A stretch of DNA of 64,000 nt from Streptomyces sp. I6 (GTDB taxonomy: Bacteria > Actinomycetota > Actinomycetes > Streptomycetales > Streptomycetaceae): contig RHDP01000001.1 of the NCBI GenBank assembly GCA_003725745.1, forward strand, positions 4,906,501-4,970,500, read 5' to 3'. Positions 2,738-15,010 of the stretch are shown here, in pieces (within the stretch, counting starts at the first letter, position 1; every line of letters starts with the position of its first letter). Below the pieces are notes generated by a model, which was not told the DNA's origin, did not search any database, and saw only the letters and a list, made by a program, of their open reading frames with translations. Position numbers and translations under genes: made by a program.

Positions 2738-2754
2738 GCGCCGACGGCCCGGGC

Positions 2755-3698
2755 GAGCCGGCCCCGCGGGTGTGGGAAGCAGCTGCGCCACGACCGGCCG
2801 TCGCGGTCGATGGTGGGACTATCCCCGCGGGTGCGGGGAGCAGAGAGGCGACGGGGCCCACCTCGTGCCACACCAGGGGCCATCCCCGCGGGTGCGGGGA
2901 GCAGCTCCTGGTCCTGGGCATGGCGACCGGAGAAACGGGACCATCCCCGCGGGTGCGGGGAGCAGTCCACGGGAGAATCCAGGACGAGCGCGGTCCAGGG
3001 ACCATCCCCGCGGGTGCGGGGAGCAGCGGGGCCGGCTGTCTCCGGGCGGGGCCCGGAGGGGACCATCCCCGCGGGTGCGGGGAGCAGCTGCTCACTGGTC
3101 CCGGTGACCCCGGCGCCCCGGGACCATCCCCGCGGGTGCGGGGGAGCAGCCGAGTTGGCTGTCGTGGATCTTGGCCGAACGGGGACCATCCCCGCGGGTG
3201 CGGGGAGCAGGGCCGGGAGATCGAGCCGTTCCTGGGCTACATGGGACCATCCCCGCGGGTGCGGGGAGCAGGACTCCGCCGACCGTGGCCCAGCTCGACA
3301 CCTGGGACCATCCCCGCGGGTGCGGGGAGCAGCTCCGTGCCAAGCGCACACCCTGGCTCAGCGCAGGACCATCCCCGCGGGTGCGGGGAGCAGCGGAGGA
3401 TCTGGGCGGCCATGTCGCCGCCGAAGGGACCATCCCCGCGGGTGCGGGGAGCAGAGGAGCGGCAGGTGGCGCCTGGTCTGCCGGGCGGGACCATCCCCGC
3501 GGGTGCGGGGAGCAGACGAGCCTTCCGATCCTGCGCTGGTACGTGCAGGGACCATCCCCGCGGGTGCGGGGAGCAGCGGAGGATCTGGGCGGCCATGTCG
3601 CCGCCGAAGGGACCATCCCCGCGGGTGCGGGGAGCAGCCACGATCGGAGGGGCGTGTCAATAACCCTAGGGGACCATCCCCGCGGGTGCGGGGAGCAG
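2755..3698 (-). CRISPR. CRISPR array 1 (type I-E), 15 repeats plus one degenerate terminal repeat
   Basis: Repeats are 28 nt with 33-nt spacers (29/32 if the C next to the handle is counted). Intact copies start at 2816, 2877, 2938, 2999, 3060, 3121, 3183, 3244, 3305, 3366, 3427, 3488, 3549, 3610 and 3671. A degenerate copy occupies about 2755-2782. The crRNA-sense strand is the minus strand: that orientation gives the type I-E layout of a 6-bp stem (CCCCGC/GCGGGG, loop ACCC) followed by an 8-nt handle ATGGTCCC. The degenerate copy is then at the distal end, as expected, and the leader side faces cas3. The copy at 3121 has one extra base in its C run (29 nt); the copies at 2816 and 2877 each have a substitution. 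Spacers 3394-3426 and 3577-3609 are identical. Confidence 0.97.
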
Positions 3699-3908
3699 AC
3701 TCGTTGACCTGGTAGTTCACCGCGGCGCAGGCCCCGTTCGGCCTACTTCCGCAGAGTCGGGCAGATGGGCCATTCAAGGCATTCCTTCGGTTCCGGTGGC
3801 TCGGTGGACCGGGCGTCAGAGGATCGGTTTACCAGCCGATATCACCCGGATGATTGCGTTCACCCATTCCCGTGCGCGGAGCCCCGCCGCGCGTGTATCA
3901 ATCTCTGC
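3699..3908. promoter_or_regulatory. Divergent region between array 1 and cas3; candidate leader of array 1
   Basis: These 210 bp separate the leader-proximal repeat of array 1 from the cas3 start. By position they should hold the array 1 leader and promoter (minus strand) and the cas operon promoter (plus strand). Parts are moderately AT-richer than the flanks. A TATCAA element at 3896-3901 lies 7 bp before the cas3 ATG, and no Shine-Dalgarno is seen, so cas3 may be translated from a leaderless transcript. I could not identify a conserved leader motif. Confidence 0.5.
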
Positions 3909-6842
3909 ATGAGCAACGGGGAGGGTACCCGTCTCGGCATGCTGCCCCGGCTCGGGGACCCGGCACGGTCGGTGTGGGCGAAGCATGACCGCGATACCGA
4001 CGGTTGGCTGCCGCTGTGGCGGCACATGGAGGACAGCGCCGAGGTGGCTCGCCTGTTGTGGGATCGGTGGCTGCCCGCGGGCGTGAGGGGGCTGATCGCC
4101 GAGGCGTTGCCGCGCGGTGACTCGGACGCGCGAGTCCTCGCCGGTTGGCTCGCCGCTGTGCACGACATCGGCAAGGCCACCCCGGCGTTCGCGTGTCAGG
4201 TCGACACGCTCGCCGACGCCATGCGTGGCCGGGGACTTGAGATGCGTTCGGCGAAGGCGATGGGGCCGGACCGTCGGATCGCGCCGCATGGTCTGGCCGG
4301 GCAGGTGCTGCTGGGCGAGTGGCTTGAGGAGCGGTATGGGTGGGCGCCCGCGCGGAGCGGACAGCTCACGGTCGTTGTCGGCGGGCACCATGGCGTGCCG
4401 CCCGAGTACGGACAGATCAAAGATCTGTACGACCGTGGGGAGTTGTTACGCACTCCCGGTGCGAGCGGACGCGTCTGGCGGCAGGTGCAGACCGAGTTGC
4501 TCGACGCATGCGCCGACTGCTTCGGTGCGAGCGGGCGGCTGGGGGACTGGCGGACGGTGAGGCTGCCGCAGCCGGTGCAGGTGCTGCTGACCGCGCTGGT
4601 CATCCTCGCCGACTGGATCGCCAGCTCGCCGGACCTCTTCCCGTACTTCCCCGACGCGGCGTCCCGTAGCGATCGGGAACGCCTGGACGCTGCTTGGCGT
4701 GGACTGGACCTGCCGGAGCCCTGGCGAGCCGAAGAGCCGGTCGAGAGCGCGCAGGAGCTGTTCGCCTCCCGGTTCGCCCTGCCAGCGGGGGCGAAGGTGC
4801 GCCCGGTTCAGGAAGCGGCTGTGGAGCTGGCCCGGGAGATGGAGAAGCCGGGCCTGATGATCGTCGAGGCCCCGATGGGGGAGGGCAAGACGGAGGCGGC
4901 GCTCGCCGTGGCCGAGGTCTTCGCGGCGCGCTCGGGTGCGGGAGGAGTGTTCCTCGCGTTGCCCACCATGGCGACCGGCAACGCCATGTTCCCTCGTCTG
5001 CTCGACTGGCTGGAGCGGGTACCGGGGGTGTCGGGGACACGTCGCTCGGTGCACCTGGCCCATTCCAAGGCCGCCCTCAACGAGGACTTCGCCGACCTGA
5101 TGGCACGCGCCGGACGGGTCGCGGCCATCGGCGTCGACGAGGCAGTGCCGATGCCGCCCCGGAGGCAGGCGGAGGGCCAGCGTCGCGCGAGTGGCGAACT
5201 CGTGGCGCACGCCTGGTTGCGGGGGCGCAAGAAGGCCATGCTCGCCTCGTTCGTCGTCGGCACTGTCGACCAGCTGCTGTTTGCCGGACTGAAAAGCCGT
5301 CACCTGATGCTGCGTCACCTTGCCGTGGCCGGCAAGGTCGTCGTGATCGACGAGGCGCACGCCTATGACACGTACATGAGCGTGTACCTGGACCGGGTGC
5401 TGTCGTGGCTGGCTGCGTACCGGGTACCCGTGGTGGTGCTGTCCGCGACTCTGCCGGCCGCGCGCAGGAGCGCGCTCCTCGCCGCGTACGCCGGCCGGAA
5501 CGACGCGACCGCCGCGGAGGAGGCCACCGCGTCGCAGGCGGAGTACCCGTTGCTGACCGCTGTCGCTCCGGGCGGATTACCGCAGGTCCGCTGTCCACGC
5601 GCATCGGCCCGGACGACGAAAGTGCGGGTGGAGCGCCTTGCCGACGGCCTGGACGTCCTCGCGGGGCGGCTGGAGGACGAACTCGTCGACGGAGGCTGCG
5701 TCCTGGTGATCAGGAACACGGTCAGGCGGGTGCTGGAGACGGCCGAGGCGCTGCGTGCCAGGATCGGCGCCGAGAACGTCACGGTCGCCCACTCGTACTT
5801 CATCGACCTCGATCGGGCCGACAAGGACCGCACGCTGCTCCGGCTGTTCGGTCCTCCGGAGAAGACGGGCGACCGGCCGGCGGGCCGGCACATCGTGGTG
5901 GCCAGCCAGGTGGCGGAGCAGTCGCTGGACGTCGACTTCGATCTGCTGGTCAGCGATCTCTGCCCGGCCGACCTGCTCCTGCAGCGCATGGGACGCCTCC
6001 ACCGCCACCAGCGCGGGCCTGACCAGCAGGAGCGGCCCAGGCGCCTGCGTACCGCGCGCTGCCTGGTGACCGGGACCGACTGGGCGGCGGAGGTGCCCGT
6101 TCCGGTGCGGGGGTCGGTCGCCGTGTACGGGCGGTACGCGCTGTTGAGGTCGGCCGCGGTCTTCCTCCCTCACCTCGATGACCCGACCCGGCGGCCGGTC
6201 GAACTCCCCACGGACATCGATCCGCTGGTGCAGAACGCTTACGGGGAGGGGCCGGTCGGTCCCGACCACTGGCAGGGCGCCTTCGAGGAGGCGCGTGAGC
6301 AGTTGGGGCGGCACCGCGTCGACCAGGCCGAGCGGGCGGCCGTGTTCCGTCTGGGGGACGTCGGGAAGCCGGGGCGGCCCTTGTTCGGGTGGGTCGCCGC
6401 CGGTGTGGGGGACACGGACGACACGGCCACCGGTCGCGCCCAGGTGCGTGACAGCCGGGACGGCCTGGAGGTCGTGGTCGTGCAGCGGCGCGGTGACGGA
6501 AGCCTGGCCACTCTGCCGTGGCTGAAGCCGGACCGTGGGCAGCGGCGTCGCGCCGGAGTCGAGCTGCCGCGGGACGCGACACCGACACGGTTCGCTGCCC
6601 GCACCGCGGCGAGCTGCGGGCTGAGGCTTCCGCTGCAGTTCTCCGGTGCCACGCTGGACCGGGCCATCGAGGAACTGGAGCGGCTGTATCTGCCTCACTG
6701 GCAGGGCAAGGACAGCCCTTGGCTGTTCGACCAGTTGATTCTCGCTCTCGACGAGGGCTGTCAGACCCGGCTGGCAGGCTTCGTACTCCGCTACAGCCCG
6801 GGTGACGGTCTTGAGGTGACCCGTGACGCAGACGACTCATGA
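3909..6842 (+). CDS. cas3: Type I-E Cas3 helicase-nuclease
   Basis: A 977-residue effector nuclease-helicase that degrades target DNA after Cascade binding. The HD nuclease domain comes first: HDIGKATPAF near residue 85 and a later GHHG motif. Next come the SF2 helicase motifs: Walker A MGEGKTE near residue 323, DEAH at residues 481-484, SATLP, and a C-terminal SQVAEQSLDVDFD ... QRMGRLHRH motif VI. The start at 3909 (MSNGEG) is chosen over 3765 because the upstream extension looks non-coding; an ATG at 3942 is a possible alternative. Two in-frame TTA leucine codons lie at 4446-4448 (residue 180) and 5577-5579 (residue 557), implying dependence on the bldA tRNA. The gene overlaps cas8e by 20 bp. 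Confidence 0.96.
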   Translation: MSNGEGTRLGMLPRLGDPARSVWAKHDRDTDGWLPLWRHMEDSAEVARLLWDRWLPAGVRGLIAEALPRGDSDARVLAGWLAAVHDIGKATPAFACQVDTLADAMRGRGLEMRSAKAMGPDRRIAPHGLAGQVLLGEWLEERYGWAPARSGQLTVVVGGHHGVPPEYGQIKDLYDRGELLRTPGASGRVWRQVQTELLDACADCFGASGRLGDWRTVRLPQPVQVLLTALVILADWIASSPDLFPYFPDAASRSDRERLDAAWRGLDLPEPWRAEEPVESAQELFASRFALPAGAKVRPVQEAAVELAREMEKPGLMIVEAPMGEGKTEAALAVAEVFAARSGAGGVFLALPTMATGNAMFPRLLDWLERVPGVSGTRRSVHLAHSKAALNEDFADLMARAGRVAAIGVDEAVPMPPRRQAEGQRRASGELVAHAWLRGRKKAMLASFVVGTVDQLLFAGLKSRHLMLRHLAVAGKVVVIDEAHAYDTYMSVYLDRVLSWLAAYRVPVVVLSATLPAARRSALLAAYAGRNDATAAEEATASQAEYPLLTAVAPGGLPQVRCPRASARTTKVRVERLADGLDVLAGRLEDELVDGGCVLVIRNTVRRVLETAEALRARIGAENVTVAHSYFIDLDRADKDRTLLRLFGPPEKTGDRPAGRHIVVASQVAEQSLDVDFDLLVSDLCPADLLLQRMGRLHRHQRGPDQQERPRRLRTARCLVTGTDWAAEVPVPVRGSVAVYGRYALLRSAAVFLPHLDDPTRRPVELPTDIDPLVQNAYGEGPVGPDHWQGAFEEAREQLGRHRVDQAERAAVFRLGDVGKPGRPLFGWVAAGVGDTDDTATGRAQVRDSRDGLEVVVVQRRGDGSLATLPWLKPDRGQRRRAGVELPRDATPTRFAARTAASCGLRLPLQFSGATLDRAIEELERLYLPHWQGKDSPWLFDQLILALDEGCQTRLAGFVLRYSPGDGLEVTRDADDS

Positions 6843-8709
6843 CCCGGCTGCTCTCATGGCGCCGTCCTTCGATCTGACCAGCAGCTCCTGGATCGGCGTG
6901 GTGCGGAGTGACGGCTCACCCGACGAACTGTCGCTCCGTCAGGTGTTCGCGCAGGCCGACGACCTGCGCTGCGTCGTCGCCGGTCTGGCCACCCAGGAGT
7001 TCGCCCTGATCCGGCTGCTCCTGGCCGTCGCGCACGACGCCCTGGACGGTCCGCGTGACATCGAGGAGTGGGCGGAGCTGTGGGAGGACCGGGAGAGCCT
7101 CGCGCCCGTCCAGGAGTATCTGACGCGGCACGCCGACCGGTTCGATCTGCTCCATCCGCAGACGCCCTTCCTGCAGTCGGCCGGACTGCGCACGCTGAAG
7201 GACGAGGTGCTCTCCCTCGACCGGATCGTGGCGGACGTGCCCGCCGGTGAGAAGTTCTTCAGCGCACGGCTGCCGGAAGTGGAGCGGCTGTCGTTCGCCG
7301 AGGCCGCCCGGTGGGTCGTCCACGTCCACGCCTACGACACCTCCGGCATCAAGACCGGCATGGCCGGTGACGACCGGGTCAAGAGCGGCAAGGTCTATCC
7401 GCTCGGCACCGGCTGGTGCGGCGGACTCGGCGGCGTCTTCGTCGAGGGCGACACGCTCCGCGAGACCCTGCTGCTCAACCTGGTGGCGGCAGACACCACC
7501 GAGCTCGAGTTCCCGGCCGACGACCGGCCGGCGTGGCGGCGCGACCCCTGCGGACCGGGCTCCACCGACCGTCCCGCGACCGGTCTTCGCGACCTGTACA
7601 GCTGGCAGTCGCGGCGCCTGCGACTGCACTACGACGCCGACGGTGTCCACGGTGTCGTCCTCGGCTACGGAGACCAGCACACCCCCCGGAACATGCACCG
7701 GCGCGAGCCGATGACCGCGTGGCGCCGCAGCGAACCGCAGGAGAAGAAGCTCGGGCAGTCGCCGGTGTATCTGCCGCTCGAACACGATCCGGCCCGCTCT
7801 GCCTGGCGGGGCATCGCCGCGCTCGTCGCCGACCGGCCGGGCGACGGTGGCGGCGGTGGTGGTGGCGGTGGCGGTGGCGGTGGCGCAGAGCCTGCCGCAC
7901 GTCTGCGGCCGAGGATCCTTGAGTGGATCGCCCGACTGGTGAGCGAGGGGCACTTGCGTCCCCGATACCTCGTCCGTGCCCGGCTGGTGGGCGTCAGCTA
8001 CGGGACCCAGCAGTCGGTCGTCGAGGAGGTCGTCGACGACCGACTGCAGATGCCGGTCGTCCTGCTGCACCGGCAGGACCCCACGTACGCGGTGCAGGCC
8101 GTCGCCGCGTCGGACGACGCCGACCGCGCGGTACGGGCCCTGGGGGACCTGGCGGCCGACCTGGCCCGAGCGGCCGGAGTCGGCCAGGAGGGGCCGAGGG
8201 CCGCGAGCCGCGCCGAAGGGTTCGACGCGCTGGAGCAGCCGTACCGAAACTGGCTGTCCGCCCTGGCGGACATTCCCGACCCCTTCTCACACCGGGACGC
8301 ATGGCGGCGTCAACTGCGGAAGTCCGTCGGCCGTCTCGGAGACCGCCTCATCGCCGCAGCGGGCGATGCGGCATGGGAGGGGCGCCTCTGCACCGGCTCC
8401 GGCTCCGGCTCCGGCACCGGCACCGGCTCTGGAACCGGCACCAAGGGCAGCACGTACTGGCTGAACGCGGGTCTCGCCGACGTGTGGTTCCGCGGGCGGC
8501 TGGCCAGGGCGCTGGGAGCCCCCGGTGATCCCGACTCCCCGGGCCCGGCTGGAGGCGGCGCAGACACCAACACCCCGGACGGCGGTGGGCCGCCAGCTCC
8601 GGACGGTGCTGGGCCGCCCGCCCCCGACGGCGGTGAGCTGAGCGCTCCGGAACCGGCCGGCACACCCGGATCCGACCACGCCGCGACCACCCCGGAGGTA
8701 CCCGTATGA
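6823..8709 (+). CDS. cas8e: Cascade large subunit Cas8e (Cse1/CasA)
   Basis: A 628-residue large subunit of type I-E Cascade, which in the family recognises the PAM and recruits Cas3. The N-terminus has the family pattern SFDLTSSSWIGV, and the middle has the conserved NMHRREPMTAWRR stretch. The GTG start at 6823 is supported by GAGG 6 bp upstream. It is over 100 residues longer than E. coli CasA because of low-complexity insertions: 13 consecutive glycines at residues 342-354 (alternating GGT/GGC, 7846-7884), an S-G/T-G repeat around residues 524-540, and a Pro/Gly/Asp-rich tail after about residue 567. These look like microsatellite expansions in linkers rather than new domains. The last 4 bp overlap cse2. 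Confidence 0.95.
   Translation: MTQTTHDPAALMAPSFDLTSSSWIGVVRSDGSPDELSLRQVFAQADDLRCVVAGLATQEFALIRLLLAVAHDALDGPRDIEEWAELWEDRESLAPVQEYLTRHADRFDLLHPQTPFLQSAGLRTLKDEVLSLDRIVADVPAGEKFFSARLPEVERLSFAEAARWVVHVHAYDTSGIKTGMAGDDRVKSGKVYPLGTGWCGGLGGVFVEGDTLRETLLLNLVAADTTELEFPADDRPAWRRDPCGPGSTDRPATGLRDLYSWQSRRLRLHYDADGVHGVVLGYGDQHTPRNMHRREPMTAWRRSEPQEKKLGQSPVYLPLEHDPARSAWRGIAALVADRPGDGGGGGGGGGGGGGAEPAARLRPRILEWIARLVSEGHLRPRYLVRARLVGVSYGTQQSVVEEVVDDRLQMPVVLLHRQDPTYAVQAVAASDDADRAVRALGDLAADLARAAGVGQEGPRAASRAEGFDALEQPYRNWLSALADIPDPFSHRDAWRRQLRKSVGRLGDRLIAAAGDAAWEGRLCTGSGSGSGTGTGSGTGTKGSTYWLNAGLADVWFRGRLARALGAPGDPDSPGPAGGGADTNTPDGGGPPAPDGAGPPAPDGGELSAPEPAGTPGSDHAATTPEVPV
7846..7884 (+). repeat. GGT/GGC glycine-codon microsatellite in cas8e
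   Basis: Thirteen glycine codons in a row, mostly alternating GGT and GGC, inside cas8e. A second simple-repeat patch (GGCTCC/GGCACC units) lies at about 8392-8442. Both keep the reading frame. Confidence 0.9.
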
Positions 8710-9431
8710 CCACCGCTTCACCCCCTCCCGTCTCGCACCCTCCGGTCCCGCCTCCGTCCGCTTCACCCTCGTCCGCCGCAGCCCCGGTCCACCAGAGGCT
8801 CGCCGAACTGACCGCGGCGACAATCGTCCCCCTCCAGCAGGGCTATCTCGCGGACCGGTCCCCGGCCGTCGCCGCTCTCGCCCGCCTGCGCCGCGGCGCG
8901 GGCCGCGAGGCGGGCGAGTTGCCCGACCTGTGGAACCTGGTCGACACCGGCCCGCTCCACACCCGTACGGACGGGTCACGGGCGTTGAGCGAGCGCGAGC
9001 TGACCGGCGCCGAGAACGCCCTGCACGCAGCGCTCACGCTGTGGGCGTTCCACCAGCAGTCCCGCGGCACCCCCATGCACTGCCGGCACACCCGTGACCG
9101 GCCACGCGGTCTGGGTGCGGCGGTCCGGCGCCTGATGCCGGCCGACGGCGTGGACGAACCCGTCCGCAAGCGCCTGGTCCGCGCAGGCACCGCCCCCAAC
9201 CTCGTCACCCTCACCCAGCGGCTGCGCGACCTCGTCGCCCTGCTGCGCCGTGACGACATCCCGCTCGACTACGCGCTCCTCGCCGGCCAGCTCTACACCT
9301 GGCAGTGGCCCGACGGGCCCGCCGCCGTCCGCCGCAGCTGGGGCCGCTCCTTCCACGAGCTGGCTCGGGCCGCTGCGGCCTCGGAAGAGAACACCACCAT
9401 GGACAGCCACACCGACAAGGACGCCTCGTGA
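8706..9431 (+). CDS. cse2: Cascade small subunit Cse2 (CasB/Cas11e)
   Basis: A 241-residue small subunit of type I-E Cascade; the dimer stabilises the displaced non-target strand. Family-like segments are LRRGAGREAGELPDLW, ENALHAALTLWAFHQQ, LGAAVRRLM and VTLTQRLRDLVALLRRDDIPLDYALLAGQLYTWQ, the last being the typical C-terminal helix bundle. It is longer than E. coli CasB (about 160 residues), mainly through a Pro/Ser-rich N-terminal extension of some 27 residues. It overlaps cas8e by 4 bp (ATGA) and cas7e by 4 bp, which suggests translational coupling and equal stoichiometric control by one transcript. Confidence 0.94.
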   Translation: MTTASPPPVSHPPVPPPSASPSSAAAPVHQRLAELTAATIVPLQQGYLADRSPAVAALARLRRGAGREAGELPDLWNLVDTGPLHTRTDGSRALSERELTGAENALHAALTLWAFHQQSRGTPMHCRHTRDRPRGLGAAVRRLMPADGVDEPVRKRLVRAGTAPNLVTLTQRLRDLVALLRRDDIPLDYALLAGQLYTWQWPDGPAAVRRSWGRSFHELARAAAASEENTTMDSHTDKDAS

Positions 9432-10624
9432 GCCGCATCTTCCTCGACGTGCACGCCCTCCAGACCGTTCCGCCCAGCAACCTCAATCGCGACGACACCG
9501 GCGCGCCCAAGACCGGGCTCTACGGGGGAGTCCCGCGTGCCCGCGTCTCCAGCCAGGCGTGGAAGCGGGCCATCCGCACCTCCTTCAAGGACGAGCAGCT
9601 GCTCGACCCCGCCGAGCTGGGCGTGCGGACGAAGAAGATCGTGGAACTCCTCGCCGACCGGATCGCGGCGCTCGACCCGTCCGCCGAGCGGGAGACGGCG
9701 CTGAAGCTGGCCGACGAGACCGTCAGGGCCGCGGGCTTCAAGACCGAGGTGCCCAAGCGCAAGGCCGACCATGCGAAGAAGGAGGGCAGCCGCACCCCCG
9801 CACCCGAGAGCAAGTACCTGGTCTTCCTCAGCTCCCGGCAGCTTGACGGCCTGGCGCGCCTCGCTCTCGACGGCGCCTCCGACATCACGGCCTTCCTCAA
9901 GACCAAGGAGAACAAGGCCCGCGCCAAGGAACTCGCGGACACCCGGCACTCCGTCGACATCGCCCTCTTCGGCCGCATGGTCGCCGATGTCGCCGACATC
10001 AACGTCGACGCCGCTGTACAGGTCGCACACGCCCTCAGCGTCCACCGGGTCGACAACGAGTCGGACTACTACACCGCCGTCGACGACGAGAACACGGACG
10101 AGGAGACCGGCGCCGGAATGATCGGTACCGTCGACTTCAACTCCGCCACGCTCTACCGGTACGCCTCACTCGGAGTGCACCAGCTCGCCGCCAACCTCGG
10201 CGCGGGCCTGCGCGACGACGAACCGCACACCGAGCCCGTCCGGCGTGCGATCGAGGCGTTCGTGCACGCCTTCACCTCATCCCTGCCCACCGGGAAGATC
10301 AACACCTTCGGTCACCACACCCAGCCCGACGCCGTCGTCGTCAGGCTCCGCACCACCCGGCCCATCAGCTACGTCGCCGCGTTCGAGGACCCGGTCCGCA
10401 GCGACGGCGGCGGTCACCTCCGTGAGGCATCCGACCGGCTCGCCGCCTACGCCGCCGACATCGAGCGCGCATACGGCGACCCCGGCAGTACCCGTACCTG
10501 GGTGCTGCGCGTCGGCCCCGCCACGCAGAAGCTGGCCGGGCTCGGCACGGAGACCGATACGCTGCGCGAACTCGCGGCCAACGTTGCCTGCGCCGTCGCG
10601 GAGCGCCTGGAGAAGCCCGCATGA
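9428..10624 (+). CDS. cas7e: Cascade backbone protein Cas7e (Cse4/CasC)
   Basis: A 398-residue RAMP protein that polymerises along the crRNA as the Cascade backbone. The N-terminus IFLDVHALQTVPPSNLNRDD followed by GLYGGVPRARVSSQAWKRAIR is the family signature; GTVDFNSATLYRYAS and LPTGKINTFGHHTQPDAVVV are also characteristic. The GTG at 9428 is chosen because it overlaps the cse2 stop (GTGA) and gives exactly the family N-terminus. It overlaps cas5e by 4 bp. Confidence 0.96.
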   Translation: MSRIFLDVHALQTVPPSNLNRDDTGAPKTGLYGGVPRARVSSQAWKRAIRTSFKDEQLLDPAELGVRTKKIVELLADRIAALDPSAERETALKLADETVRAAGFKTEVPKRKADHAKKEGSRTPAPESKYLVFLSSRQLDGLARLALDGASDITAFLKTKENKARAKELADTRHSVDIALFGRMVADVADINVDAAVQVAHALSVHRVDNESDYYTAVDDENTDEETGAGMIGTVDFNSATLYRYASLGVHQLAANLGAGLRDDEPHTEPVRRAIEAFVHAFTSSLPTGKINTFGHHTQPDAVVVRLRTTRPISYVAAFEDPVRSDGGGHLREASDRLAAYAADIERAYGDPGSTRTWVLRVGPATQKLAGLGTETDTLRELAANVACAVAERLEKPA

Positions 10625-11354
10625 GCGTGCTCGTCCTCCGCTTGGCTGGTCCGCTGCAATCCTGGGGAGCCTCCTCCCGGTTCACTCGCCGCACCACCGA
10701 ATCGGCCCCGACAAAGAGCGGCGTGGTCGGCCTGCTCGCCGCGGCGGCCGGCATCGAACGAGGCGACGACGAGCGCCTCGCTCCGCTGGCGGCACTCCGG
10801 TTCGGGGTGCGCATCGACCAGCCAGGCACCCGCATCCGGGACTTCCACACCGCCCACCACGGCGTCACCGACACGTCCATGCCCCTGTCTGAGCGGTTCT
10901 ACCTCGCCGATGCCGTCTTCGTCGCCGCCGTCGAGGGTGACCACGTCCTGCTCAGCGATCTGCGCGCCGCCCTGCACGCGCCGGTGTACCCGCCCTACCT
11001 CGGCCGGCGCTCGTGCCCGCCCGCCGAGCCGCTCGTCCTGCAACTGCACGAGCACGCACACGGCATCGAGGACGTGCTCAGGACCACGCCGTGGCAGGCC
11101 GCGGACTGGTACCGCAGGCGCCACCGGCCCCGGACTACCTGACCGTGCTGCGTGAGGCGTCCGGCGACGAGACAACCGAGACGGCGGACCTGCTGCACGA
11201 CCAGCCGGTCAGCTTCGACGCCGGCCACCGGCGGCACGCGCCACGCACCGTCGTCACCGATCCTGTGCCCGTCCCGATCCCCGCGGGCGGCGATCCGCGG
11301 TACGCGCACGACCCGTTCACCGCCCTCGACTCCCTGGAGGAGGAAAGCGCCTGA
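10621..11354 (+). CDS. cas5e: Cascade subunit Cas5e (CasD), frameshifted as assembled
   Basis: Cas5e caps the 5' handle of the crRNA in Cascade. The N-terminus LVLRLAGPLQSWGASSRFTRRTTESAPTKSGVVGLLAAA is diagnostic of the family. As assembled, the frame stops at 11142, after residue 173. The missing C-terminus continues in the next frame (...PDYLTVLREASGDETTETADLLHD...DPFTALDSLEEESA) to a stop at 11352-11354, abutting the cas6e ATG. Restoring one C in the run at 11128-11131 gives an uninterrupted 244-residue protein of normal length. Because other genes in this window show the same kind of loss, a sequencing error is more likely than a true mutation. Confidence 0.9.
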
Positions 11355-12140
11355 TGTTCATCTCCCGATTCCGCGTCAACACCGCGCGATCCGGCGCGCG
11401 CCGCCTCCTGTCCTCGCCCCAGCCCCTCCACGCCGCCGTCATGTCGTCGTTCCCCGGCATCCTGCCCTCCGACCGCCCGGCGCCCGCCGCCCCCGTGTGC
11501 TGTGGCGCCTGGACCAGCGGAGCCGCGCCGAGGTGCTGCTCTACATCGTCAGTCCCCACCGCCCCGACCTGACGCATCTGGTCGAACAGGCCGGTTGGCC
11601 CGCCGCCTTCGATCCCGCGAACCCGGGCTGGCAGACCCGGCCCTACACGCCGTTCCTCGACCGGCTGGGGCGGGCGACCGCTGGGAGTTCCGCCTGACCG
11701 CGAACCCCGTGCACACCATCCGCCGCAAGGAGGGCGAACCACGCAAGATCACCGCCCATCTGACCCCCACGCACCAGATGGGCTGGCTCCTCGACGAGGA
11801 ACGCCAGCAGCGCCTCGGCTTCCGCGTCTGCGAGAAGCCCGCCGAGCGCAGGCTCCTGCCCGAGGGCACCACACACCAGAAGCGCCCCCACCCGGGTGAC
11901 CGTTACGAGCTGACCGTACGGGACACACGGAAGCTCTCCTTCACCAAGTCCCGCGACCCGGGGAGCCGTCAGGGCAGGCCGGTCACCGTCGTCACCGCCA
12001 CCTTCGAGGGACGGCTGGAGATCACCGAGCCGGACGCCCTGCGCCGCGCGCTCACCCAGGGCGTCGGACGGGCCAGAGCGTACGGCTGCGGTCTCCTCAC
12101 CCTGGCCCCCGTCACCCACCCCGCCCTACGGACGCCATGA
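11354..12140 (+). CDS. cas6e: crRNA-processing endoribonuclease Cas6e (CasE), two frameshifts as assembled
   Basis: Cas6e cuts the repeat RNA at the base of its hairpin and stays bound to the 3' end of the crRNA. Three consecutive frames encode one protein: MFISRFRVNTARSGARRLLSSPQPLHAAVM (frame of 11354), then LWRLDQRSRAEVLLYIVSPHRPDL, then WEFRLTANPVHTIRR ... VTATFEGRLEITEP ... GVGRARAYGCGLLTLAPV, the glycine-rich C-terminal motif of the family. Adding one C to the run at 11490-11494 and one G to the run at 11667-11670 yields a continuous 262-residue protein. Both are single-base losses in homopolymers. The gene overlaps cas1 by 4 bp. Confidence 0.9.
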
Positions 12141-13129
12141 GCACGGTCTCCAGGCGCCCGGCACTCACCCCGAGACACCTCACCCGTACCGGTGAACGCC
12201 TCTCCTTCGTCTATCTGGAACGCTGTACGGTCCACCGCGACGCCAACGCCATCACGGCCCAGGATGCCGAAGGCACCACCCACATTCCCTCCGCGACCAT
12301 CGGCACCTTGCTCCTCGGCCCCGGCACGCGGATCACCCACCAGGCCATGAGTGTTCTGGGCGAGACCGGCGCGGCGGTCTGCTGGGTCGGTGAACACGGC
12401 GTGCGCTACTACGCGTCCGGCCGGGCCCTCAGCCGTACCTCCGCCCTCGTGGAGTCGCAGGCCCGGCAATGGGCCAATCCCCGCAGCCGCCTTGCCGTGG
12501 CACGGGAGATGTACCGGCTGCGCTTCCCGGACGAGGACCCCTCCGGTCTCACCCGGCACGAACTCCTCGGCCGTGAGGGGAAACGGGTCAAGGACCACTA
12601 CCGGGCCGAAGCCGCCCGCACGGGCGTCCCCTGGCGGGGCCGCCGCTACGTTCCCGGCGACTTCAGCAGCGGTGACGCCGTCAACCAGGCCGTCACCGCC
12701 GCTGCCCAGTGCATGTACGGGATAGCCCACGCCGTCGTCACCTCGCTCGGCTGCAGCCCGGCTCTCGGCTTCGTCCACTCGGGCCATGAACTCTCCTTCG
12801 TTCTGGACATCGCCGATCTCTACAAGACCGAGATCGGTATCCCCGTCGCCTTCGACGTGGCTGCACAGAACGAGGAGGACGTCGGCTCTCGCACCCGCCG
12901 CGCTCTGCGGGACCGCATCAACGACACATCGCTGCTGAACCGGTGCGTAGACGACATCAAGCGTCTGCTGCTCCCGGAATCGGCCGGCGACACCGCAACC
13001 GGCAGCCACCAGGACGCAACCCCGGGCGTGGTAACCGATGTGGTCACCCTCCACAGCGACGGCGGCCGCCAGGTCCCCTCCGGCGTCAACTACGGCGGAG
13101 GGGACGACTACGGAGACTCGCTCTGGTGA
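12137..13129 (+). CDS. cas1: CRISPR integrase Cas1 (type I-E)
   Basis: A 330-residue integrase subunit that, with Cas2, inserts new spacers. Metal-binding residues expected from E. coli Cas1 (E141, H208, D221) are present at E147 (LLGREGKRV), H214 (LGFVHSGHELSF) and D227 (VLDIADLYK), a constant offset of six residues. After about residue 295 there is a variable hydrophilic tail with GGDDYGDSLW at the end. It overlaps cas6e and cas2 by 4 bp each. The reading frame is intact, so adaptation is probably functional at the protein level. Confidence 0.97.
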   Translation: MSTVSRRPALTPRHLTRTGERLSFVYLERCTVHRDANAITAQDAEGTTHIPSATIGTLLLGPGTRITHQAMSVLGETGAAVCWVGEHGVRYYASGRALSRTSALVESQARQWANPRSRLAVAREMYRLRFPDEDPSGLTRHELLGREGKRVKDHYRAEAARTGVPWRGRRYVPGDFSSGDAVNQAVTAAAQCMYGIAHAVVTSLGCSPALGFVHSGHELSFVLDIADLYKTEIGIPVAFDVAAQNEEDVGSRTRRALRDRINDTSLLNRCVDDIKRLLLPESAGDTATGSHQDATPGVVTDVVTLHSDGGRQVPSGVNYGGGDDYGDSLW

Positions 13130-13953
13130 CCGTCATCGTCCTCACCAACTGCCCCGCCGGTCTGCGTGGCTTCCTGACACGCTGGCTGCTGGAGATCTCC
13201 GCGGGCGTGTTCGTGGGCAACCCCTCCGCCAGAATCCGCGACCTGCTCTGGGACGAAGTCCAGCAGTACGCGGGCCAGGGCCGGGCCCTGCTGGCCCACA
13301 CCACGAACAACGAGCAGGGTTTCACTTTCCGCACCCACGACCACGCGTGGCACCCGACCGATCTCGAAGGGGTTACCCTGATCCGCCGTCCCGACCCGGC
13401 TTGGCCCTGCTCCCCGCACCCGCGGGGATGGTCCCGGCTGAGCCGAGTAGCCGGCCGCCTGGACGGCCTGCTCCCCGCACCCGCGGGGATGGTCCCCGCA
13501 CACCAGTCCCCTACACCTCAGCCCGCACCTGCTCCCCGCACCCGCGGGGATGGTCCCAGCGAGCCTCCGACGAGGGCCACGGCGACGCACTGCTCCCCGC
13601 ACCCGCGGGGATGGTCCCCCTGGCATCCCCATCCCGAAGGAAGCCAGCGACTGCTCCCCGCACCCGCGGGGATGGTCCCTTCCGCGCCCACTCGTGGTCC
13701 TCGAACTGGTGCTGCTCCCCGCAACCGCGGGGATGGTCCCTTCCGCGCCCACTCGTGGTCCTCGAACTGGTGCTGCTCCCCGCACCCGCGGGGATGGTCC
13801 CGGCAGACCTCAGCGCGTGAACCTCGAGGACCACTGCTCCCCGCACCCGCGGGGGATGGTCCTCACCCACCGGTCAGCGCCCGACCGTCGCATGCCTGCT
13901 CCCCGCACCCGCGGGGATGGTCCCCCGGCGGCGGTGACCGGCGTGGACGGTAG
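13126..13953 (+). CDS. cas2: CRISPR adaptation protein Cas2e, open frame running into array 2
   Basis: The conserved Cas2e core is residues 1-93: TVIVLTNCPAGLRGFLTRW, EISAGVFVGNPSARIRDLLW and a C-terminal DLEGVTLIRRP. That matches the 94-residue E. coli protein in full. The GTG start overlaps the cas1 stop (GTGA). There is no stop codon before the first repeat at 13407; the frame stays open through nine repeats and stops at 13951-13953, giving a formal 275-residue product whose last 182 residues come from repeats and spacers. The single-base loss seen elsewhere in this assembly would move into another frame that is also open through the first repeats (to 13820). The true C-terminus is therefore uncertain and may be repeat-encoded. 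Confidence 0.9.
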   Translation: MTVIVLTNCPAGLRGFLTRWLLEISAGVFVGNPSARIRDLLWDEVQQYAGQGRALLAHTTNNEQGFTFRTHDHAWHPTDLEGVTLIRRPDPAWPCSPHPRGWSRLSRVAGRLDGLLPAPAGMVPAHQSPTPQPAPAPRTRGDGPSEPPTRATATHCSPHPRGWSPWHPHPEGSQRLLPAPAGMVPSAPTRGPRTGAAPRNRGDGPFRAHSWSSNWCCSPHPRGWSRQTSAREPRGPLLPAPAGDGPHPPVSARPSHACSPHPRGWSPGGGDRRGR

Positions 13954-14926
13954 CGGCTGCTCCCCGCACCCGCGGGGATGGTCCCGGGCACCAGGCCATG
14001 GCACTCCTCAGGGGGCACTGCTCCCCGCACCCGCGGGGATGGTCCCAGCTGCGCCCACAGCAGGTTGGTCCCGGGACCTCCCGGACGCGGTCGAGCACGG
14101 TCGGCTGCTCCCCGCACCCGCGGGGATGGTCCACGGATTGTCGGCGCTGAGCACACCCCGCTTGGCTGCTCCCCGCACCCGCGGGGATGGTCCCGTGGGC
14201 GGCTCGGAGAAGAGGAGCGCCGCGCTCTGCTCCCCGCACCCGCGGGGATGGTCCCAAGGTCCAGCGCGCCCTCGACAACCCGCGCACCTGCTCCCCGCAC
14301 CCGCGGGGATGGTCCCCCACGACACCGACCCGCAGGACCTGCCCGTCCCTGCTCCCCGCACCCGCGGGGATGGTCCCCGGTGGGCCTCCTCCTTGGTGAA
14401 CGCCGCGACCTGCTCCCCGCACCCGCGGGGATGGTCCCGCCTATCGGGAAATGATCCGACCATGAGCAAGCTGCTCCCCGCACCCGCGGGGATGGTCCTC
14501 CCGGGTTCCGCTCCCGCTGCTACCCGGATCTCTGCTCCCCGCACCCGCGGGGATGGTCCCTCCTCGCCCGCCAGGTCCTCCGCGACGTCGGCCTGCTCCC
14601 CGCACCCGCGGGGATGGTCCCCAGGTAGCGACCTTGCCGGGGATCTGCTTGAGCTGCTCCCCGCACCCGCGGGGATGGTCCCTACCTCGTGCGCGGCGTC
14701 CAGGTCGAGGTGTCCTGCTCCCCGCACCCGCGGGGATGGTCCCAGCTCAGCCACCCGCTGGTCTTCCTCGGCCGACTGCTCCCCGCACCCGCGGGGATGG
14801 TCCCTCCGGGCCGGACGGCTGGCGGCCGCGACGCTGCTGCTCCCCGCACCCGCGGGGATGGTCCCACGGGCCCTAAGGCCGGCTCACGACCCGATCCGCT
14901 GCTCCCCGCACCCGCGGGGAGATACC
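13407..14926 (+). CRISPR. CRISPR array 2 (type I-E), 25 repeats, immediately after cas2
   Basis: Same 28-nt repeat as array 1 but in the opposite orientation, so crRNA-sense is the plus strand. Repeats start at 13407, 13468, 13529, 13590, 13651, 13712, 13773, 13834, 13896, 13957, 14018, 14105, 14166, 14227, 14288, 14349, 14410, 14471, 14532, 14593, 14654, 14715, 14776, 14837 and 14899. The last one diverges after 22 nt, as is usual at the distal end. Most spacers are 33 nt. Exceptions are a 59-nt segment at 14046-14104, which contains a remnant of a deleted repeat, and a 34-nt spacer at 14865-14898. The repeat at 13712 has one loop substitution, the one at 13834 has one extra G, and the spacers on both sides of 13712 are identical. 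Confidence 0.97.
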
Positions 14927-15010
14927 CCTCGGGCACGGGCGGGCGGCGTTCTCGCACGCCGGCTGCTGGAGCCCGTACCGGCTCGGTGCCGTGTGACTGA
15001 TCGCGGCTCA

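Follow-up and report, generated by a model that had tools for sequence, protein, structure and literature searches.

How can a cas2 gene run without a stop codon into the CRISPR array that follows it, and what would become of the array and of the Cas2 protein under such an arrangement? The question is raised by a type I-E locus of Streptomyces sp. I6, carried on contig RHDP01000001.1 within the 64,000 nt stretch of DNA that was analysed here, hereafter called the window. The fusion of cas2 to its downstream array proves to be a true and unusual observation, the plain cause of which is most likely a deletion, so that the locus gives the impression of a known immune system damaged locally and not of a new kind of system.

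The type I-E locus and its two arrays

The type I-E cluster has cas3, cse1, cse2, cas7, cas5e, cas6e, cas1e and cas2e lying together. The genes from cas3 through cse1, cse2, cas7 and cas5 to cas6e occupy 3765..12140 on the forward strand, their starts being approximate. NCBIfam type I-E models score above their cut-offs for cse1, cse2, cas7, cas5e, cas6e (as a fragment), cas1e and cas2e, and cas3 is recognised by core and HD domain models. The cas1e gene (12137..13129, forward strand) is intact, reaches 346.7 bits with TIGR03638 and encodes a protein 97.3% identical over 330 aa to that of the related genome G379.

Array 1 lies before cas3 on the reverse strand (about 2754..3698) and holds 16 repeats, the last of them degenerate. 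Array 2 follows cas2 on the forward strand (13407..14927) and holds 25 repeats; because its last repeat is the degenerate one (4 mismatches), its leader would be expected on the cas2 side, yet array 2 is leaderless. Repeats of 29 nt and spacers of 32 nt are found in both arrays, except for 33-nt spacers and a single spacer of 58 nt. A search of a phage collection with both arrays returned no protospacer match at E 0.1. Among known systems, the type I-E locus of S. avermitilis, as described in PMC4762764, shares with the window its gene set, its 29-nt repeats and its two oppositely oriented arrays, one following cas2 and the other preceding cas3. The same report describes an AT-rich leader at repeat 1 of each S. 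avermitilis array, whereas the window has one at array 1 only, and in the window, unlike in that species as reported, cas2 has no stop codon before array 2.

The junction between cas2 and array 2

By sequence and translation, cas2 starts with a GTG codon at 13126. Its product contains a Cas2e core, since TIGR01873 scores 65.9 bits over residues 1-85 against a cut-off of 33.15, and codons 1-91 (13126..13398, forward strand) are colinear with the related genes. Similarity to relatives stops at codon 91 (13398). Codons 92-94 read GCT TGG CCc; array 2 begins with its first 29-nt repeat at 13407, on the third base of codon 94. There is no intergenic DNA between gene and array, and no leader motif precedes 13407. 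The frame of cas2 then spans nine repeat starts (13407 to 13896) before it meets its first in-frame stop, a TAG at 13951..13953 on the forward strand; the other two frames at the junction reach stops at 13818-13820 and at 13439. A sequence-only reading of this DNA had placed repeat 1 inside codon 94, the cas2 frame open across nine repeats and an alternative frame open to 13820, and all these positions hold when sequence and translation are checked. A repeat-derived C-terminus of the encoded Cas2, one of the two options it offered, also agrees with the comparison, in which the alignment ends at codon 91 and is followed by residues encoded by spacer and repeat.

Core and repeat 1 are separated by 8 nt (13399..13406, forward strand), which differ both from the cas2 linker and from the end of the leader in relatives. 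They are probably the end of a lost spacer, and they precede none of the 2,573 related repeats checked. A scan of positions 12600-13500 found neither promoter nor terminator, a result that carries little weight in Streptomyces. RNA folded around repeat 1 is predicted to form the hairpin of that repeat (z -1.85), and 10 of 200 shuffled sequences fold equally well.

Tail, stop and leader in related loci

Relatives were gathered by searching for Cas2e in 392 genomes of the genus, 108 of which gave a match, and in a species-level collection, from which the best 80 of 134 relatives were kept. The wider set comprises 149 loci, 134 of them distinct, with the window excluded; an array was found within 1 kb of cas2 in 118 distinct loci and not found within that distance in 16. 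In the usual related Cas2e, a core of about 91 residues is joined by a linker to a conserved [GN]WS...KRRR tail, and the gene is followed by a leader with conserved motifs. The [GN]WS motif is present in the tail of 106 of the 108 fetched loci with a readable stop codon, some species entering this set from both collections; L083 and L095 are the exceptions, and L056 is cut by the end of its contig. In an 80-row alignment that counts the window among its rows, with its repeat-encoded W and S, columns W108 and S109 do not vary; G107, A111, K113, R114-R116 and G118 are nearly invariant. First-group actinobacterial loci, such as those of G379 and G359, are like the window in Cas2e core, repeat and gene order. 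Their GWS...KRRR tail leads to a stop at about codon 113-126, after which comes the leader; the window has lost all three. Aligning cas2 and its downstream DNA with other I-E loci, a check that the sequence-only reading had proposed, sets the window apart from its relatives.

The same separation appears in the spacing of gene and array. A repeat ahead of the in-frame cas2 stop occurs in none of the 118 distinct loci with an array, in which the gap from stop to repeat has a median of 87 nt. A pattern made of the core end, 4-34 nt and a repeat start, which fixes some codons and the first repeat bases and would miss variants, matches one of the 392 genus genomes, namely the window's own. In plasmid records, all 10 listed of 119 span 371-608 nt against a query of 201 nt, which indicates extra DNA between core and repeat there.

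The tail also extends to proteins of known structure. Profile A1 matches the Cas2 of PDB entry 8HI1 and the Cas2-DEDDh of 8FY9, a Megasphaera protein (PMC10284694), through the tail, which both carry and the window Cas2e has lost. A G[WFY]S.AAK tail (A1 columns 107-118) is common to these two proteins and to actinobacterial Cas2e. Matches to E. coli Cas2 (94 aa) end before the tail. A PDB search with a 35-residue piece of the tail gave weak matches to antibody light chains only, and an AlphaFold model of the G379 Cas2e (mean pLDDT 75.6) places a helix at 110-117 within a low-confidence stretch.

A leader consensus for the I-E arrays of actinobacteria emerges clearly from the comparison. The 68 nt immediately preceding repeat 1 were taken from 84 distinct relatives, with 11 loci skipped, and the resulting matrix has the consensus at.tG.Cggaatc.gtgaAAGTgct..aaAac.g....c..ccc.g.tAAA.ccgCAGGTCa...AGt. 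Leave-one-out scores have a median of 60.4 and fall below 15 in three of the 84 loci, L030 (12.2), L088 (3.8) and L070 (-35.5), the last apparently because its first repeat is damaged. The leader of array 1 (3699..3766, reverse strand) scores 42.8, higher than any other of the 127,864 positions scored in the window. At array 2, the best of five registers beside repeat 1 scores -56.7, where the mean over the window is -60.3 (sd 12.5). The claim that array 2 has no leader is thereby upheld, its score lying at the background of the window.

In one other group of Streptomyces I-E loci, almost no DNA separates cas2 from repeat 1 either. This second Cas2e group comprises 51 distinct loci, 44 with an array (among L186-L236), and in 32 of these 44 repeat 1 begins within 25 nt of the cas2 stop. 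Leader scores over the 3′ end of cas2 range from 9.6 to 27.4 in the seven loci scored, and in five loci (L186, L187, L188, L192 and L195) the TAA within the leader's TAAA box serves as the stop codon of cas2. A missing gap alone is thus unremarkable; what is remarkable in the window is the missing motif together with the missing stop, both of which the second group keeps. One could suppose from the existence of this layout that the leader of array 2 lies inside the 3′ end of cas2 and that the locus is normal, and a leader in that place is what the sequence-only reading had named as the case against itself. Searched for in silico, none was found: the best 68-mers starting within 13126-13407 score -23.6 on the forward and -16.5 on the reverse strand, and the scores of the seven embedded leaders imply that one of this kind would have been seen. 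In addition, the window cas2 has no stop codon before the array, and its Cas2e is a first-group protein; in that group the leader comes after the stop. No leader motif overlaps the cas2 end, and a normal locus of this layout is barely credible.

A probable deletion in the lineage of the window

The comparison with G379, whose locus L151 lies on a single contig of 7.18 Mb, locates the change. This genome aligns with the window in 14 listed blocks, with identities of 94.9-96.9% in 12 of them and of 87.2 and 89.9% in the other two. One match, at 95.4%, covers 5509-13398 and ends exactly at 13398, and the alignment with G359 terminates at the same base. From the end of the core to repeat 1, G379 has 183 nt, comprising tail, stop and leader, against 8 nt in the window, a net loss of 175 bp. 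Outgroups keep all three elements, so it is the window's lineage that has lost them. At the level of the assembled sequence, the presence of these three elements in relatives and outgroups and their absence here, where array 1 has kept its leader, is established. We put at roughly 80% the probability that a lineage-specific deletion joined codon 91 of cas2 to the interior of array 2, removing the tail, the stop and the whole leader. The deletion probably also took the first repeat or repeats and part of a spacer, and with them the newest spacer or spacers. If the 8 nt are indeed the end of a spacer, it would have removed the original repeat 1 as well and probably amount to 236 bp or more. A search for spacers common to array 2 and loci L151-L154, which might have placed the right breakpoint, found none.

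The sequence-only interpretation, a leaderless array and a repeat-derived C-terminus, fits these data, but it had not foreseen a deletion as their cause. A single missing base as the cause is ruled out by the 175 bp absent relative to G379. Relocation of the missing piece within the genome was also considered and rejected: all 37 of 37 places where the repeat occurs genome-wide fall in the two arrays of the window, and the assembly contains one Cas2e match only, the leader search having covered the window. According to PMC4762764, the first repeat and spacer were lost from one array of S. avermitilis in culture, so leader-end deletions do happen. In the literature searches made, no fusion of cas2 to a repeat appeared by title or by the start of an abstract.

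The junction is seen in a single assembly of a single isolate, and the strain might carry an intact cas2 tail and leader that the contig skips. The assembly, 87.42% complete and in 2 contigs, has single-base losses relative to G379 at 11128 (cas5) and at 11490 and 11670 (cas6e), and array 2 contains the odd 58-nt spacer. Against an artefact, gaps on the window side are of at most 9 nt within 43,164 aligned nt, a count from which larger events escape as they would end a block. Moreover, the left end of the junction falls in unique cas2 sequence and not in a repeat, which is not what repeat collapse would give. An assembly artefact is thus unlikely, with some weight left to it, and a deletion in the strain itself is the preferred explanation. 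The single-base losses put cas5 and cas6e out of frame, so that alignment of either gene with G379 spreads over more than one frame; those at 11128 and 11490 fall in runs of C. They are probably consensus errors; were the frameshifts real, the interference genes would be broken and crRNAs may not be made at all.

The open frame and the repeat-encoded residues

An open frame across nine repeats might be taken as a sign of selection, but such lengths are ordinary in related arrays. Among 3,648 frame starts in 60 of these arrays, with runs reaching the array end left out, 22.9% stay open for at least 546 nt, and the run here measures 544 nt; the frame is therefore ruled out as a mark of selection. 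Spurious proteins translated from arrays have been described (PMC7673337).

It could also be proposed that the fusion was selected because the in-frame repeat replaces the lost Cas2 tail, with PRGWSR standing for GWSR. In the 80-row alignment the repeat-encoded W and S do sit on the invariant columns W108-S109, and natural linkers span lengths that include the distance between the core and the repeat-encoded GWS. Yet GWS is encoded by one repeat frame in three, the residues that follow it are spacer-derived, and a net charge at least as high is found at 41.1% of 1,747 other positions in the arrays. With one frame in three and so common a charge, the repeat-encoded GWS does not support selection, and such an origin of the fusion is very improbable. 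Equally far-fetched is the further idea that the fusion is maintained, the repeat encoding the tail of the only Cas2e found and Cas6e cutting in the cas2 frame setting the balance of full-length and truncated Cas2. If it were so, crRNA processing would control the adaptation machinery.

How such a locus would function

On the preferred reading of a deletion, array 2 would have become a frozen archive, without uptake at a leader-marked first repeat, and new spacers would go to array 1. In E. coli, as described in PMC10011333, integration is steered to repeat 1 by leader elements, namely an IHF site (about -9 to -35) and further elements upstream, around -50. From this known function of leaders, the usual polarised acquisition would be lost at array 2. 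The frozen state is nonetheless uncertain, because Cas1-Cas2 alone is reported to integrate at all repeats in vitro (PMC10011333) and the Megasphaera complex is described as having no leader specificity in its structure (PMC10284694). The transcript of array 2 would come by read-through from the cas operon, which is plausible by analogy with S. avermitilis, where cse1 to cas2 are reported to be co-transcribed (PMC4762764). Translating ribosomes may also enter the array, as the sequence-only reading had supposed.

Cas2 itself would be made as the core followed by repeat-encoded residues. A Cas6e cut in repeat 1, at the position that we assume to be the same as in E. coli, would leave a message that ends after codon 100 without a stop. 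Such a cut message would yield a Cas2 of roughly 100 residues, open to ribosome rescue, and an uncut one a protein of 275 residues. The G379 Cas2e aligns with E. coli Cas2 over 1-86, and the window core keeps all of the aligning part. Covering all that aligns with the 94-residue E. coli protein, this core may therefore work with Cas1. Codon differences in the core number 16 synonymous and 3 nonsynonymous against G359 and 6 and 5 against G379, with 22 and 9 in cas1 against G379; these counts are too small to speak for constraint or decay of the Cas2e core.

If real, the locus is a natural mutant deleted for a leader and for the Cas2 tail within an otherwise recognisable two-array I-E locus. It could then show whether acquisition at array 1 requires the conserved GWS...KRRR tail, and whether crRNAs still arise from an array that has no leader and depends on operon read-through.

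The spacers record a few further events. Spacer 11 of array 2 (14047-14104) is the one of 58 nt and consists of 17 nt, then 9 nt left over from a repeat (GTTGGTCCC) and then a spacer of 32 nt, a structure that looks like the loss of some 35 nt within the array. Spacer 8 of array 1 (3211-3242) is identical to spacer 51 in array 2 of G379, which would reflect either double uptake from the same target or exchange between arrays. Duplicated spacers occur in both arrays of the window, namely spacers 5 and 6 of array 2 (13680-13711 and 13741-13772) and spacers 2 and 5 of array 1 (3577-3608 and 3394-3425).
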